Made by a program: the position numbers and the translations under genes. Positions 36,621-42,416 of a DNA stretch of 64,000 bases are shown in pieces. The stretch's first letter is position 1, and each line of letters begins with the position of its first letter. The stretch is taken from positions 1 through 64,000 of the forward strand of contig CALXKZ010000007.1 in assembly GCA_944389065.1 (NCBI GenBank), in the 5' to 3' direction. This DNA is from an uncultured Spirochaetaceae bacterium (GTDB lineage: Bacteria; Spirochaetota; Spirochaetia; Sphaerochaetales; Sphaerochaetaceae). The notes below the pieces were generated by a model. It was not told the DNA's origin. It did no database searches and saw nothing but the letters and a program-made list of their open reading frames with translations.

Positions 36621-37301
36621 ATGGCAGATGATGTTTCAAGAGAGATGATTCCCATACCGGCAGTGAAAAGATTCCCCTCATATCTCAGGCTTCTAAGACA
36701 GGCCAGAGATAACGGCAAGAAATATATAAGCGCAACTGAACTCGCTGACGAACTGTCTTTGAAGCCTATACAGGTCCGTAAGGATATTTCCAGTACAGGC
36801 ATTGAAGGAAAGCCCCGTATCGGCTTTGTCGTAGATGAGCTTATCGCTGCGATCAACCATGTCCTAGGGTGGGATAATCCAACAGAGGCCTTGATCGTAG
36901 GATGCGGGAATCTTGGATCTGCAATTGCTGCATATGGAGGGTTTGAAGCGTATGGGCTTAAGATTGTCGCGGCATTTGATAAGGATCCAAGACGCATAGG
37001 AACGAGAATCGGCGATATTTCCGTTTATCCGATCGAGACTGTGAACCAATATGTAAAGACCCATCGCGTGACTATTGCTGTAATTGCTGTCCCCGCATCT
37101 CAGGCTCAGGCTACCGCAGATCTTCTGGTAGGATGCGGTATACGCGGAATATGGAATTTTGCTCCGAAGGATCTGAAGCTTCCCCCGGATGTTGTCCTTC
37201 AGCGTACAGATCTGGCGACTTCCTTCGCGGTTCTTTCCATTAAGCTCAGGAAAAAACTTGCCGAGGAAATGGGGGATGATTATTTCGAGAGCGATATATA
37301 A
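36621..37301 (+). CDS. rex: Redox-sensing transcriptional repressor Rex
   Basis: A 226-residue Rex. The N-terminal winged helix (FPSYLRLLRQARDNGKKYIS through LKPIQVRKDISSTG) binds DNA; the Rossmann domain has VGCGNLGSAIAAY and binds NADH/NAD. Rex releases DNA when NADH rises. It starts one base after ispH, and the hydrogenase cluster begins 161 bases downstream on the same strand, a natural target since hydrogenases dispose of reducing power. I could not find a clear Rex palindrome in that gap. Confidence 0.95.
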   Translation: MADDVSREMIPIPAVKRFPSYLRLLRQARDNGKKYISATELADELSLKPIQVRKDISSTGIEGKPRIGFVVDELIAAINHVLGWDNPTEALIVGCGNLGSAIAAYGGFEAYGLKIVAAFDKDPRRIGTRIGDISVYPIETVNQYVKTHRVTIAVIAVPASQAQATADLLVGCGIRGIWNFAPKDLKLPPDVVLQRTDLATSFAVLSIKLRKKLAEEMGDDYFESDI

Positions 37302-37413
37302 TGCCATGATAAGCAAGTTGATGTGAAATCAGTAATATTAATATGAAATTATTGGCTATAAAGTGTCATCTTTCAGATTTATCATAGCTATTTTCTGCTC
37401 CTGAATCATTTTA

Positions 37414-37440
37414 TTGACTTACTGTTCGACATGGTATAGT
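37414..37440 (+). promoter_or_regulatory. Putative promoter of the hydrogenase cluster
   Basis: TTGACT (37414-37419) and TATAGT (37435-37440) are good boxes, but the 15-base spacing is shorter than ideal, which often goes with regulated promoters. AGGAG precedes the first gene. No palindromic Rex site is evident around the boxes. Confidence 0.45.
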
Positions 37441-37462
37441 CTTTTAGTGACTAGGAGCTAAA

Positions 37463-37744
37463 ATGGCTGAGAATAATAAGCTGAAGGTGGAGCTCTGCAT
37501 GGGTTCCAGCTGCTTTGCAAGAGGCAATAGCGGCATCCTTTCCGATCTGGAAGGATATATTAGCGAGAACGGACTTGAGGACAGAGTTGAGCTTGAAGGG
37601 CATCTCTGCCTTGGAAAATGCAATTCAGGACCGCACATCATGATTGGTGATAAGGAGTTCTCAGGTATTTCTGATTCCAGCTGCGTAATAGACCTTGTCA
37701 GAAAGGCACTGGAGGAAAACGATGCAGAATCCGATCTACACTGA
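37463..37744 (+). CDS. Thioredoxin-like 2Fe-2S protein of the hydrogenase cluster (first copy)
   Basis: A 93-residue protein with the thioredoxin-like 2Fe-2S pattern: C-x4-C in ELCMGSSCFARG and C-x3-C in HLCLGKCNSG. It resembles the small NuoE/HydC-type subunits that carry electrons between NADH-linked parts and hydrogenases. It lacks the long helical N-terminus of NuoE. The next gene starts inside its last codons (22-base overlap), so it is translationally coupled to the sensory-type hydrogenase. A second copy precedes hydA at 40712. Confidence 0.85.
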   Translation: MAENNKLKVELCMGSSCFARGNSGILSDLEGYISENGLEDRVELEGHLCLGKCNSGPHIMIGDKEFSGISDSSCVIDLVRKALEENDAESDLH

Positions 37745-39509
37745 GGTAACAAGCTGCCGTGACTGCTATAAGTGCGTGCGTTCATGTCCTGTAAAGGCAA
37801 TCCAGATCAAAGATGGAAATGCAATGATCATGAAGGACAGGTGCGTTTATTGCGGTAAATGTGTCCATGTATGTCCTAATAATGCGAAAAAAGTAAGGGA
37901 TGATACAGAACGTGTGAAGCTTGCCATAAAATCAGGCAGGCCTGTATTCTGTTCGCTTGCTCCTTCATATGCTGCAGAGTTTTCCGGATATGAGGATGAG
38001 CTTCTGACTGCATTGAAGAAGCTTGGATTCTCAGCGATTTCCGAGACAGCAATAGGAGCTGCTCTTGTAACGCAGGCACTTGATATGTATGCAGCAGAGC
38101 ATGATGGCAATGCGCCGTTCATCGGAACTGCATGCCCTGCTGTAGTGGAGCTTGTCAAGAAATACTATCCGCAGTATGTTGACAGGCTTGCTCCGGTTCC
38201 TTCGCCGCTCCAGTCACATAGCGCGTATCTCAGGCATCTTTACAATGAGGACCTGATTATCGTTTTCATTGGTCCATGCATTGCAAAGAAGATGGAGGCT
38301 GATACAACGCCAGGCTATCCTGATCTTGCTATTTCCTTCGATGAGCTCAGAGCGTGGATGGGGAGTGAAGGTATTTCTCTTGAGACAATAAAGGCTGAGC
38401 CTGTTGATCTTGTGCCAATGAAAGCTGGTATAAGCACACTATATCCGGTTGAAGGTGGGCAGATAATGAGCTCTTCAATCTGGGGAAAGAACAGGATTGA
38501 TACAAAGGCCATTTCAATGTCCGGTATGGAAGAGGTCCTTTCTGCGCTTTCAATAGAGGATGATCCGTTCCCGTTCCTGGAGCTTCTATCATGTGATGGA
38601 GGATGTGTGAATGGGCCTGGTACGAGCATCAGGACATCGATAGCACAGAAGAAGAGAAAAGCTGCGGAGTGGACAGAGAAAAGGCTGGATGAGCCCGAGT
38701 TGTTCAAAGGAGATGAGGAGTTCGCCAGAACGCTTCTCGAGAAGGGCTATTCAATTCTTGATGCTGAGAAACCTTCCAATGAGAGCAGATTCAGTGAGGA
38801 GCATACTGAAAGCGAGATCAAGCGTGCTCTTGTCGAGCTTGGAAAGCTTACCAAGGCTGATGAGCTCAACTGCGGCGGCTGTGGATACAACACATGCCGT
38901 GATATGGCTATCGCCTATCTTGATGGAATGGCAGAGATTGAAATGTGCGTCACAAAGATGCGCAAGGAAGCGGAAAGCAAGGTCGATGTTCTGCTCCGTA
39001 CGATTCCAATGGGTGTTGTCATTGTTGATTCGGATCTCCAGATTGCTGACTGCAATACGAGGTTCCTCGATCTTTTCGGTGATATGGAAGAAGGCTTTGT
39101 CGATCAGAGCGTGCTGGCGATGGTCAAGGGGCTTCCACTTGAGCGCTTCATCTCATTCTCTGATAAATTCCGTGATCAGTTCTATCTATCGCATCCGGGG
39201 CAGTACAGGCTCCATTTCAAGGATAAGTATCTGCGTGTGACCTTCTTCCTTGTGGAGGAGAAGAGGCTTCTTGGTGCGATGTTCGAAGATATAACCAGTC
39301 CGACAATCAGACGTGAGACCGTTGTGAAGAAGGCTGAGGATGTCATCCAGAAGTCACTGGAGACGGTACAGCAGATTGCTTCGCTTCTGGGAGAGAATGC
39401 TGCAGAGACAGAGATTATGCTCAATTCGCTGATTGATGCATTCAGTGTACATTCTTCCGGAGAATCCGATTCATCGTTCACCGAGGACGAAGGTGGGGAT
39501 CTGACATGA
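37722..39509 (+). CDS. Sensory-type [FeFe]-hydrogenase with PAS domain (HydS/HfsB-like)
   Basis: A 595-residue multidomain protein. Residues 12-60 hold two 4Fe-4S motifs (SCRDCYKCVRSCP and CVYCGKCVHVCP). The H-cluster domain follows: TACP at 136-139, GPCIAKKME at 184-192 and CDGGC at 291-295. Residues 384-409 have an extra Fe-S motif CGGCGYNTC, and about 420-530 form a PAS domain. The position of the proton-relay Cys of active enzymes is Ala137, as reported for sensory hydrogenases, so slow catalysis and hydrogen or redox sensing are predicted. The start at 37722 follows GGAGG. It overlaps the phosphatase gene by ATGA, its likely output. Confidence 0.88.
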   Translation: MQNPIYTEVTSCRDCYKCVRSCPVKAIQIKDGNAMIMKDRCVYCGKCVHVCPNNAKKVRDDTERVKLAIKSGRPVFCSLAPSYAAEFSGYEDELLTALKKLGFSAISETAIGAALVTQALDMYAAEHDGNAPFIGTACPAVVELVKKYYPQYVDRLAPVPSPLQSHSAYLRHLYNEDLIIVFIGPCIAKKMEADTTPGYPDLAISFDELRAWMGSEGISLETIKAEPVDLVPMKAGISTLYPVEGGQIMSSSIWGKNRIDTKAISMSGMEEVLSALSIEDDPFPFLELLSCDGGCVNGPGTSIRTSIAQKKRKAAEWTEKRLDEPELFKGDEEFARTLLEKGYSILDAEKPSNESRFSEEHTESEIKRALVELGKLTKADELNCGGCGYNTCRDMAIAYLDGMAEIEMCVTKMRKEAESKVDVLLRTIPMGVVIVDSDLQIADCNTRFLDLFGDMEEGFVDQSVLAMVKGLPLERFISFSDKFRDQFYLSHPGQYRLHFKDKYLRVTFFLVEEKRLLGAMFEDITSPTIRRETVVKKAEDVIQKSLETVQQIASLLGENAAETEIMLNSLIDAFSVHSSGESDSSFTEDEGGDLT

Positions 39510-40702
39510 ATAATATCTTCATAGATGTGGATTATGCACAGGTTTTCAAACATGGGCAGAAAATAGGCGGTGATGTATTCCTGCTTTCAAGGAATCCGGA
39601 AAACAATCAGATAGTCTCTACTCTTTCCGATGGGCTTGGAAGCGGGGTCAAGGCCAACGTGCTAGCATCGCTTACAGCTCACATGGCGCATCGTTTGTCA
39701 TTTTCCCCGATTGACCTGAGCCACTCTGCGAAGATAATCATGGATACCCTCCCTGTCTGCAAGGAAAGGAAGATAAGCTATTCGACTTTCACAATTGCGG
39801 ATATCAGATACGGGGAGGATATGGAGCATATCGCTGTAAATCTTGTTGAATATGATAATCCTCCATCTCTGAGGTTCTCTGGTCCTGATCCGATTACATG
39901 GAAGCGCGATAAGACAGAGCTGCAGAGAGAGGGTGCCTTCAAGAAGGAAATTGTCGCACAGTCGGCATTCAATCTTGAAATAGGCGATAGGCTTGTCATG
40001 TTCTCAGATGGAGTCACGCAGTCAGGTCTGGGCAAAAGTCTTCCTCTAGGCTGGAGGCTTGATGGTGTGAAGACATTTGTCAGTGATGAGATAAAAAAGG
40101 ATCCTGATATCTCTGCCAGAGAGCTCTCACGCGCTATTGTCCAGAAGGCCTATTCCCTTGATGGACTTGCGTCCAAGGACGATATAACATGCGTGGTTGT
40201 CTATGTCAGAAGACCAAGACGTCTGCTGATTGTCACAGGCCCCCCATTTACCAAGGAAGCTGATGAGGTTCTTGGGGAGAAGATCCGGGCATTCAAAGGA
40301 AAGAAGATTGTCAGTGGTGGAACGACAGCCCAGATTGTCTCAAGGCTTCTGGGAAAGAAACTCACTCTTGATCTCTCATCGTGGTCCAAGGATGTTCCTC
40401 CTGCATCAAAGATGGAGGGGATTGATCTCGTTACGGAGGGCATGCTCACCTTGTCCAAGGTAGCTACGATACTTGAGAAGAAGACAAATCCTGCAGATCT
40501 TCCAAATGACCCGGCAAAGAAGTTCGTCGAGATGCTTCTTGATAGCGACCAGGTTCATTTCATTGTAGGAACAAAGATCAATGAAGCGCACCAGGATCCG
40601 AATATCCCTGTTGAGATCGGAATCAGAAGAACGATTATCGGGCGTCTCAGAAAGGCGCTTGAGGAAATATATCTAAAGGAAACATCCCAGGAGTATTTAT
40701 AG
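39506..40702 (+). CDS. SpoIIE/PP2C-type serine phosphatase linked to hydrogenase
   Basis: A 398-residue protein. The first 235 residues form a SpoIIE/PP2C phosphatase with metal motifs GGDVF, STLSDGLGSG, MFSDGVTQSG and KDDITCVVVYV. Residues about 240-398 form an added domain with LLIVTGPPF and SGGTTAQIVSRLLGKK that I cannot assign. It would remove phosphate from Ser/Thr of a target such as an anti-sigma antagonist. Coupled by ATGA to the PAS-containing hydrogenase, it is probably the output of that sensor. Its target is not in this window. Similar genes lie in Hfs-type hydrogenase operons of clostridia. Confidence 0.83.
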   Translation: MNNIFIDVDYAQVFKHGQKIGGDVFLLSRNPENNQIVSTLSDGLGSGVKANVLASLTAHMAHRLSFSPIDLSHSAKIIMDTLPVCKERKISYSTFTIADIRYGEDMEHIAVNLVEYDNPPSLRFSGPDPITWKRDKTELQREGAFKKEIVAQSAFNLEIGDRLVMFSDGVTQSGLGKSLPLGWRLDGVKTFVSDEIKKDPDISARELSRAIVQKAYSLDGLASKDDITCVVVYVRRPRRLLIVTGPPFTKEADEVLGEKIRAFKGKKIVSGGTTAQIVSRLLGKKLTLDLSSWSKDVPPASKMEGIDLVTEGMLTLSKVATILEKKTNPADLPNDPAKKFVEMLLDSDQVHFIVGTKINEAHQDPNIPVEIGIRRTIIGRLRKALEEIYLKETSQEYL

Positions 40703-40711
40703 GAGGATTCA

Positions 40712-40972
40712 ATGAAGAAGTCCAAAGTGAAAGTAAGAATCTGTTTAGGTACGGCATGCTTTGTGCAGGGGGGAGCTGATCTTCTCCTGTATAATGACTT
40801 TGTCGATCCAGCAGTACTCGCAGAATGTGAGATTGAGGGTTGTTCTTGCCTTGATGAATGCAAGGTTGGGAATGGAAGCGCTCCTTATGTCTCAATAAAT
40901 GACAAAGTCTATAGCGGAGTCAATCAGGATATGTTCTGTAAGCTCCTTGCGGAGGCCGTGAAGAATGCTTGA
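40712..40972 (+). CDS. Thioredoxin-like 2Fe-2S protein of the hydrogenase cluster (second copy)
   Basis: An 86-residue protein with C-x4-C (RICLGTACFVQG) and a CSCLDEC segment giving the second Cys pair. It is a paralogue of the 37463 gene. AGGAGG precedes its ATG. It overlaps hydA by eight bases, so it is likely the electron partner of the catalytic hydrogenase, while the first copy pairs with the sensory protein. No NuoF-like flavin subunit is present, so direct NADH use by this complex is not supported by this window. Confidence 0.85.
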   Translation: MKKSKVKVRICLGTACFVQGGADLLLYNDFVDPAVLAECEIEGCSCLDECKVGNGSAPYVSINDKVYSGVNQDMFCKLLAEAVKNA

Positions 40973-42416
40973 ACTGAATAATCAGTATACTCTCATGAAG
41001 AGGAAGATCGATACAGAAGTCCTTAAGTGCTTTTTCGATGGTACTCTCGTTGAGCAGGCTGATAAACTGCCTCTGGAGATAATCCCGAAGACAAGAGTTC
41101 CTTTCAGATGCTGTATCTATAAAGAGAGGGCGATGGTGCGTTATCGCATCATGGCTCTGGCTGGTATAAACATCGAGCGTGATGACGATGAGGAGAAGCC
41201 TCTTTCAGAATATATGAAGGAAGTCCTCTCTGAGGACAAGCCACCGCTTCCGCTTCTGACTACCATCATCACAGGGTGCTCTGGATGCCCTAAGTCGCAG
41301 TACAGGATTTCCGATGGATGCAGAGGCTGTTTTGCCCGTCCCTGTATGTCAAATTGTCCTAAGGATGCAATCGTTTTCATAAATGGTCAGGCCCATATTC
41401 AGGAGGATAGATGCATCAGATGCGGCAAGTGCATGGAGGTTTGTCCATTCCATGCTGTTGTGCATATCCCTGTTCCATGCGAAGAGGCATGCCCTGTCGA
41501 TGCAGTGAAGAAGAATGAGGAAGGATTTGTAGAGATTGAGCATGATAAGTGCATAGGCTGCGGAAAATGTGTCAGGTCATGTCCTTTCGGCGCCATAGTG
41601 GAGCGTTCGGGCCTTTTCCCGGTTGCAAAGATGCTCAAGCGTGGAGATAAGGTCGTTGCAATGATTGCCCCTGCAATTGAGGGACAGTTCCCTGGAACGC
41701 TTGGACAGCTTAAGGCTGCAATAAAGAAAGCTGGTTTCTATGATGTTGTTGAGGTTGCAGAAGGGGCAGAGGTCACATCTGTGAAAGAGGCAGAGGAACT
41801 CCATGAAAGAATCAGTGAAGGTGCAGACTTCATGACGACCTCCTGCTGTCCATCATATATGGAGCTTGTTGATATCCATATTCCTTATCTTAAAGAGAAG
41901 AGATCATCAACGCTCTCTCCAATGGGATATGCTGCTGAAATCGTCAGAGAGAAGTACCCTGATGCGAAATCGGTCTTTATCGGGCCATGCCTTGCAAAAA
42001 AGGTAGAAGCTGCGAAGAGGTACCGCGATAAGATTGATGGTGTTATGACATTTGCTGAGCTTGCTTCCATATTCATTGCTAAGGATATCGATGTGAGAGA
42101 GATGGAGGCTGATGATCTTGGCGATACAGCTTCATTTGAGGATTGCCGTGAGTTCGCAGTCACATCAGGTGTTGCGGCATGTGTCATGAGAAGATTCCAG
42201 TCTGAAGGAGTAAATGCCAGAACGCTGCCTATCAATGGTCTTGATAAGAAGACTGTTCGTCTTATGAAGACATGGGAGCGCAGGGCACCTGATGCAGAGC
42301 TTGTTGAGGTGATGGCCTGTGAAGGTGGTTGTATTGCTGGTCCCGGCACAATCGTAAAACCGGCTCTTGCTCTTAAGCTGAGAAATCAGAAGATGGCACC
42401 AGTAAAGTCAAAATAG
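40965..42416 (+). CDS. hydA: Catalytic [FeFe]-hydrogenase
   Basis: A 483-residue monomer-type [FeFe]-hydrogenase. Residues 105-210 carry several Fe-S motifs (CSGCPKS, CRGCFARPCMSNCP, CIRCGKCMEVCP, CIGCGKCVRSCP). The H-cluster motifs are complete: TSCCPSY (292-298) with the proton-relay Cys294, GPCLAKKVE (340-348), and MACEGGCIAGPG (Cys452, Cys456). It makes or uses hydrogen with ferredoxin-like donors. It lacks the N-terminal plant-type 2Fe-2S domain, like group B enzymes. The maturases HydE, HydF and HydG are not in this window. A strong terminator follows. Confidence 0.93.
   Translation: MLELNNQYTLMKRKIDTEVLKCFFDGTLVEQADKLPLEIIPKTRVPFRCCIYKERAMVRYRIMALAGINIERDDDEEKPLSEYMKEVLSEDKPPLPLLTTIITGCSGCPKSQYRISDGCRGCFARPCMSNCPKDAIVFINGQAHIQEDRCIRCGKCMEVCPFHAVVHIPVPCEEACPVDAVKKNEEGFVEIEHDKCIGCGKCVRSCPFGAIVERSGLFPVAKMLKRGDKVVAMIAPAIEGQFPGTLGQLKAAIKKAGFYDVVEVAEGAEVTSVKEAEELHERISEGADFMTTSCCPSYMELVDIHIPYLKEKRSSTLSPMGYAAEIVREKYPDAKSVFIGPCLAKKVEAAKRYRDKIDGVMTFAELASIFIAKDIDVREMEADDLGDTASFEDCREFAVTSGVAACVMRRFQSEGVNARTLPINGLDKKTVRLMKTWERRAPDAELVEVMACEGGCIAGPGTIVKPALALKLRNQKMAPVKSK

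Follow-up and report, generated by a model that had tools for sequence, protein, structure and literature searches.

In Thermoanaerobacterium saccharolyticum, the hfsABCD operon (Shaw 2009; Eminoglu 2017, PMC5707799) encodes a PAS-containing HydS (HfsB), a serine phosphatase (HfsC) and a ferredoxin-linked hydrogenase resembling HydA2 (HfsD). A group C sensory [FeFe]-hydrogenase beside a Ser/Thr phosphatase is likewise typical of HydDB group C3, labelled 'phosphatase-linked (putative)' (PMC5037454). In this work, an operon of the same kind is described from an uncultured Spirochaetaceae bacterium, a gut spirochaete with a draft assembly that is 87% complete (GCA_944389065.1). The window analysed is a stretch of 64,000 nucleotides (contig CALXKZ010000007.1, positions 1 to 64,000), and the operon is found with an upstream rex gene at positions 36,621 to 42,416. 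Its five hydrogenase genes are the Hfs or C3 arrangement, a kind already described and not a new one. The locus is read here as an Hfs-type (group C3) redox or H2 sensor–phosphatase module with a catalytic partner, which would balance H2 against ethanol (probability roughly 0.6).

Control of fermentation by H2 pressure or redox state via Hfs operons has practical weight for ethanol yield. Deletion of hfsA or hfsB raises ethanol about 1.8-fold as well as adhE expression, deletion of hfsB raises hydrogenase activity, and no ethanol rise follows deletion of hfsC or hfsD (PMC5707799). HfsD is required for the ethanol phenotype (PMC11837493). In hfs mutants, NADH-dependent alcohol dehydrogenase (NADH-ADH) increases without a matching rise in aldehyde dehydrogenase (ALDH), and the authors suggested possible post-transcriptional control (PMC5707799). 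What makes the spirochaete case valuable are the partners that it excludes, a phosphatase domain without a name and the genomes that have no maturases, all described below.

Gene set and conservation

All six genes are encoded on the + strand in the order that had been read from the letters in an earlier note (Table 1). Its assignment to an Hfs-type set holds, with a PAS-containing HydS, an intact SpoIIE-type phosphatase and a group B hydrogenase matching the published descriptions (PMC5707799, PMC5037454). Two of the overlaps listed there are also correct, namely 4 bases between hydS and the phosphatase gene (ATGA) and 8 bases between trxB and hydB. The third, between trxA and hydS, is 23 and not 22 bases, with the HydS ATG at 37722. 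The phosphatase gene and trxB are separated by 9 bases, and a gap of 161 bases lies between rex and trxA.

HydS consists of two 4Fe-4S domains, an H-domain, a Cx2Cx4Cx16C cluster motif and a PAS domain, the motif (C384-C387-C392-C409) being located between H-domain and PAS. The proton-transfer cysteine (C299) is replaced, giving TACP where TSCCP is usual. Furthermore, M353 is exchanged for glycine (GPC in place of MPC) and M497 for leucine (ELLSC in place of VMAC). Such replacements, together with the Cx2Cx4Cx16C motif, are marks of sensory [FeFe]-hydrogenases (PMC8163306). In HydB, the H-cluster motifs TSCCP, GPCLAKK and EVMACEGGC are present.

The catalytic domain of the phosphatase spans residues ~1-235. 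Asp23, 42, 168 and 226 are invariant in 20 phosphatase sequences and in the alignment fall on the metal-binding residues of SpoIIE, and the structure model matches SpoIIE structures. The earlier note had named an inactive frame as a point that would count against its reading; the frame is intact, with all four catalytic PP2C aspartates kept.

Phosphatase matches were obtained in 64 of 100 relatives searched, and the loci that were read have their genes in this same order. When named genomes were scanned with the phosphatase alone as query, 80 loci were returned. The best matches belong to Candidatus Ornithospirochaeta-type spirochaetes, followed by Clostridia, Acidobacteria, Verrucomicrobia, Planctomycetes, Nitrospirae, Riflebacteria and others. 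In all 80 named genomes, from many phyla, hydS is located directly upstream of the phosphatase gene. The full five-gene order is present in at least 45 of them, a lower bound, as small genes escape detection at distance. Because the same order recurs in relatives and hydS always precedes the phosphatase gene in the named genomes, the arrangement is not due to chance. The question of how Hfs operons control fermentation is thereby narrowed, as the phosphatase keeps strictly to HydS across many phyla and carries a conserved domain without a name.

The spirochaete set shares the order of HydS, phosphatase and hydrogenase with hfsABCD. Unlike hfsABCD, it includes two separate [2Fe-2S] thioredoxin-like genes and is adjoined by rex and secDF-ispH. 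One of the thioredoxin-like genes heads the operon, the place taken in hfsABCD by HfsA, which is described as aligning with no known protein. The likeness to group C3 lies in domains, motifs and gene neighbourhood, whereas the HydDB class itself is defined by sequence clusters.

Table 1. Features of the rex–hydrogenase locus (positions in the window)
Feature	Position	Strand	Evidence
rex	36621..37301	+	NF003994 253 bits (cut-off 130); PF06971 and PF02629
Candidate operator, TGTGA-N6-TCACA-like inverted repeat	37318..37341	.	centred 84 bases ahead of the -35 box
Candidate promoter of the hydrogenase operon, TTGACT-17-TAGTCT	37414..37442	+	TTGAC kept in all 33 upstream regions
trxA, thioredoxin-like [2Fe-2S] protein, 93 aa	37463..37744	+	PF01257 33 bits (cut-off 24.8)
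hydS, sensory [FeFe]-hydrogenase, 595 aa	37722..39509	+	Fer4, Fe_hyd_lg_C 140 bits, PF04060 FeS, PAS_8
SpoIIE-type PP2C phosphatase	39506..40702	+	PF07228 46 bits (cut-off 25); conserved Asp; structure models
trxB, second thioredoxin-like [2Fe-2S] protein, 86 aa	40712..40972	+	PF01257 25.8 bits (cut-off 24.8)
hydB/hfsD-like group B [FeFe]-hydrogenase, 483 aa	40965..42416	+	TIGR04105 'FeFe_hydrog_B1' 516 bits (cut-off 450)

Phosphatase C-terminal domain and H-cluster maturases

The enzyme shares the PP2C catalytic fold and metal-binding aspartates with SpoIIE/RsbU phosphatases. It differs from them in having no STAS/RsbW partners, a different C-terminal domain, and an input domain that is a separate protein, HydS. 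The second domain (residues ~238-398) carries conserved GPP, GGTTA, TEG and NEAHQDP motifs and is predicted confidently, with a predicted local distance difference test score (pLDDT) of 91.7. Neither Pfam nor NCBIfam contains a match to it, and no Foldseek match to the PDB was obtained at E <= 0.001. According to VIA-align, its closest folds are Rossmann-like and come from molybdopterin oxidoreductases and NuoG (Z 7.6-9.6). This resemblance, seen in the model, appears to concern the fold only and is silent on function. In one relative (G084), the C-terminal domain is encoded behind a degenerate N-terminal part and ahead of trxB-hydB (L055:7715-10139), and hydS with a full phosphatase gene is located elsewhere in that genome (L049:7817-10984).

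The earlier note had pointed to HydEFG as genes to be looked for in the genome, and HydE, HydF and HydG are all found on contig C38. In 24 of 61 operon-bearing spirochaete relatives, all three maturases are below the cut-off. Low completeness was considered as the cause and rejected, as mean completeness is equal in genomes with and without HydEFG. The maturase-free genomes include the single-contig G049 from the same family and others that are 94-100% complete. In the 19 maturase-lacking genomes that were read (G051 has HydF alone), HydB and HydS both keep every H-cluster cysteine. Group A hydrogenases with full motifs are also encoded in the HydEFG-free G049, G081 and G085. Several complete-motif [FeFe]-hydrogenases occur without HydE, HydF or HydG in these three genomes, in G088 and G058, and in about 17 genomes of the spirochaete's own genus; some of these genomes consist of one contig. 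A short literature search found no published report of such hydrogenases in HydEFG-free genomes.

Possible signal and target of the module

In the proposed mechanism, HydS would read H2 or the redox state of ferredoxin. The 4Fe-4S cluster at the C-terminal side of HydS and its PAS domain would then relay the signal to the PP2C phosphatase, which is co-translated with HydS and would alter the phosphorylation of some target. The phosphorylation state of this target would shift the split of electrons between H2, produced by HydB and a separate HydABC, and ethanol, produced by AdhE. The small [2Fe-2S] proteins would most likely ferry electrons to or from HydS and HydB. In three loci from other spirochaete families, an AdhE-length gene is located between rex and trxA (L041, 11212-13836; L042; L051), and the one in L041 is AdhE by its Pfam domains. 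This position ties the module to ethanol.

The SpoIIE/RsbU type of the catalytic domain would fit classical partner switching, in which the phosphatase acts on a STAS anti-anti-sigma factor against an RsbW-type kinase and a sigma factor is set free. The earlier note had seen no kinase or anti-sigma factor in the window, and no standard partner appeared when the search was widened to the spirochaete's own draft genome and 99 relatives. The draft genome, at 87% completeness, encodes one SpoIIE-type phosphatase; it contains no Hanks kinase, 0 matches to STAS proteins and no HATPase_c_2 match above the cut-off that would indicate an RsbW-type kinase. Among 48 genus members searched, 43 have the phosphatase and three have a STAS match. 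Since these proteins are missing from the genome and STAS is rare in the genus, classical partner switching is very improbable. With the standard partners absent in the spirochaete lineage, the target of the phosphatase must be something else. Ruminococcus albus has a comparable pair of sensory HydS and HydA2-type catalytic hydrogenase (Zheng 2014, as summarised in PMC5707799 and PMC11837493). According to these summaries, the signal there is proposed to reach a Ser/Thr protein kinase, unlike in the spirochaete, where none was found in the genome. The phosphatase may instead act directly on a hydrogenase subunit, on AdhE or on the substrate of HydD, a protein of a second hydrogenase operon in the same genome. 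Control would then be post-translational and not transcriptional, as is suggested by the rise of NADH-ADH without ALDH in hfs mutants (PMC5707799) and by the copy of the C-terminal domain ahead of trxB-hydB in G084 (L055). Such direct control of enzymes is rather unlikely, as the argument from the genomes is one of synteny.

As to the signal, HydS could be a redox sensor and not an H2 sensor; its 4Fe-4S clusters, whether or not the [2Fe] subsite is present, would report the redox state of ferredoxin to the phosphatase. This is consistent with the operon and its cluster cysteines being kept in HydEFG-free genomes, with Mogibacterium-type hydS–phosphatase pairs that have no adjoining hydrogenase, and with loci in which a hydrogenase-free PAS protein and a [2Fe-2S] protein accompany the phosphatase. 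However, the spirochaete itself encodes HydEFG, and both H-cluster binding and a reaction with H2 have been observed in vitro for sensory [FeFe]-hydrogenases of Thermotoga and Thermoanaerobacter (PMC11376134, PMC8163306). A pure redox sensor appears rather unlikely. It is tentatively proposed that HydS, phosphatase and HydB can work without HydEFG. Either the H-cluster would be assembled by another route, or the proteins would serve as [2Fe]-free FeS redox sensors and electron carriers, driving a phosphatase whose C-terminal domain is undescribed and whose target is not a STAS protein. Many genomes keep the operon but have lost HydE, HydF and HydG, which makes it directly testable what HydS senses.

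Several points weigh against a sensor–phosphatase module that balances H2 and ethanol. Sensing of H2 by a complete H-cluster is hard to square with the 24 genomes that have no HydEFG, and such a module leaves the phosphatase's conserved C-terminal domain unexplained. Furthermore, HydD matches kinase families weakly in the spirochaete's genome, and linking it to the phosphatase is guesswork. Finally, the module is known in this organism from its genes alone.

HydD is encoded in the group A operon hydC-hydD-hydE-hydB-hydA on contig C78 (L057:5759-11442). It resembles GHKL ATPases, weakly so in this genome (PF02518, E 3e-4), and inspection by eye shows clear N, G1 and G2 boxes in relatives. Another sensory hydrogenase has earlier been noted beside a histidine kinase-like ATPase (PMC8163306). 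HydD is the sole hydrogenase-linked protein of the draft genome that comes into question as a kinase; that it opposes the phosphatase is a guess. A conserved kinase gene directly beside the phosphatase was also considered and rejected, as clustering of the neighbours in 100 loci gave the operon and the local synteny of ispH, secDF and rex. The same clustering revealed HydF/HydE-like genes in nine loci of other phyla.

Upstream region, rex and locus variants

The rex gene, whose product belongs to the NAD(H)-responsive repressors, begins 1 base after ispH and closes a secD-secF-ispH-rex run. Given this 1-base gap, rex is probably part of the secD-secF-ispH transcript. It need not share the transcript of the hydrogenase genes, because a conserved candidate promoter separates it from trxA. 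The TTGAC box of this promoter is located 44-55 bases before the trxA start in 33 of 33 upstream regions. A candidate operator, an inverted repeat, mostly lies 83-87 bases upstream of TTGAC in these regions, with two at 104-105 bases. Its right half is degenerate in the window, and both half-sites are perfect in L061, L063 and L080. A score of at least 8 out of 10 is reached by 73% of the upstream regions and by 9% of shuffled ones; as the 33 regions are related, this reflects a conserved position and not independent events. Counts of the TGTGA-N6-TCACA motif in eight genomes are well above the reversed control.

The earlier note had suggested that Rex adds control by NADH. The adjacency of rex stands. 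As for the control, rex is set apart by the 161-base gap and the conserved promoter, and the inverted repeat would, as a sequence, fit CRP/FNR and Rex equally. A scan of the window with the textbook 18-mer Rex box gave no clear site, and rex is missing or located elsewhere in some relatives (L038, L084). Judged from the sequence, control of the hydrogenase operon by Rex is plausible. The second hydrogenase operon on contig C78 adjoins a different Rex gene, so that the genome has two Rex paralogues, one beside each hydrogenase set.

Beyond the spirochaete operon, the phosphatase occurs in several other contexts. In two carbon monoxide dehydrogenase/acetyl-CoA synthase (CODH/ACS) clusters, its partners are a [2Fe-2S] protein and a PAS protein lacking any hydrogenase domain (L053:2892-5532, L054:6879-9340). 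This pairing is a swap of the sensor onto the same phosphatase output. The Mogibacterium-type genomes with hydS–phosphatase pairs and no adjoining hydrogenase comprise L087-L095 and L130. Two tandem hydS–phosphatase pairs are present in Riflebacteria (L127:2545-15813) and in a metagenome-assembled genome labelled Erysipelotrichia (L102:1-7276), and the tandem array in L127 is headed by rex and hydCBA.

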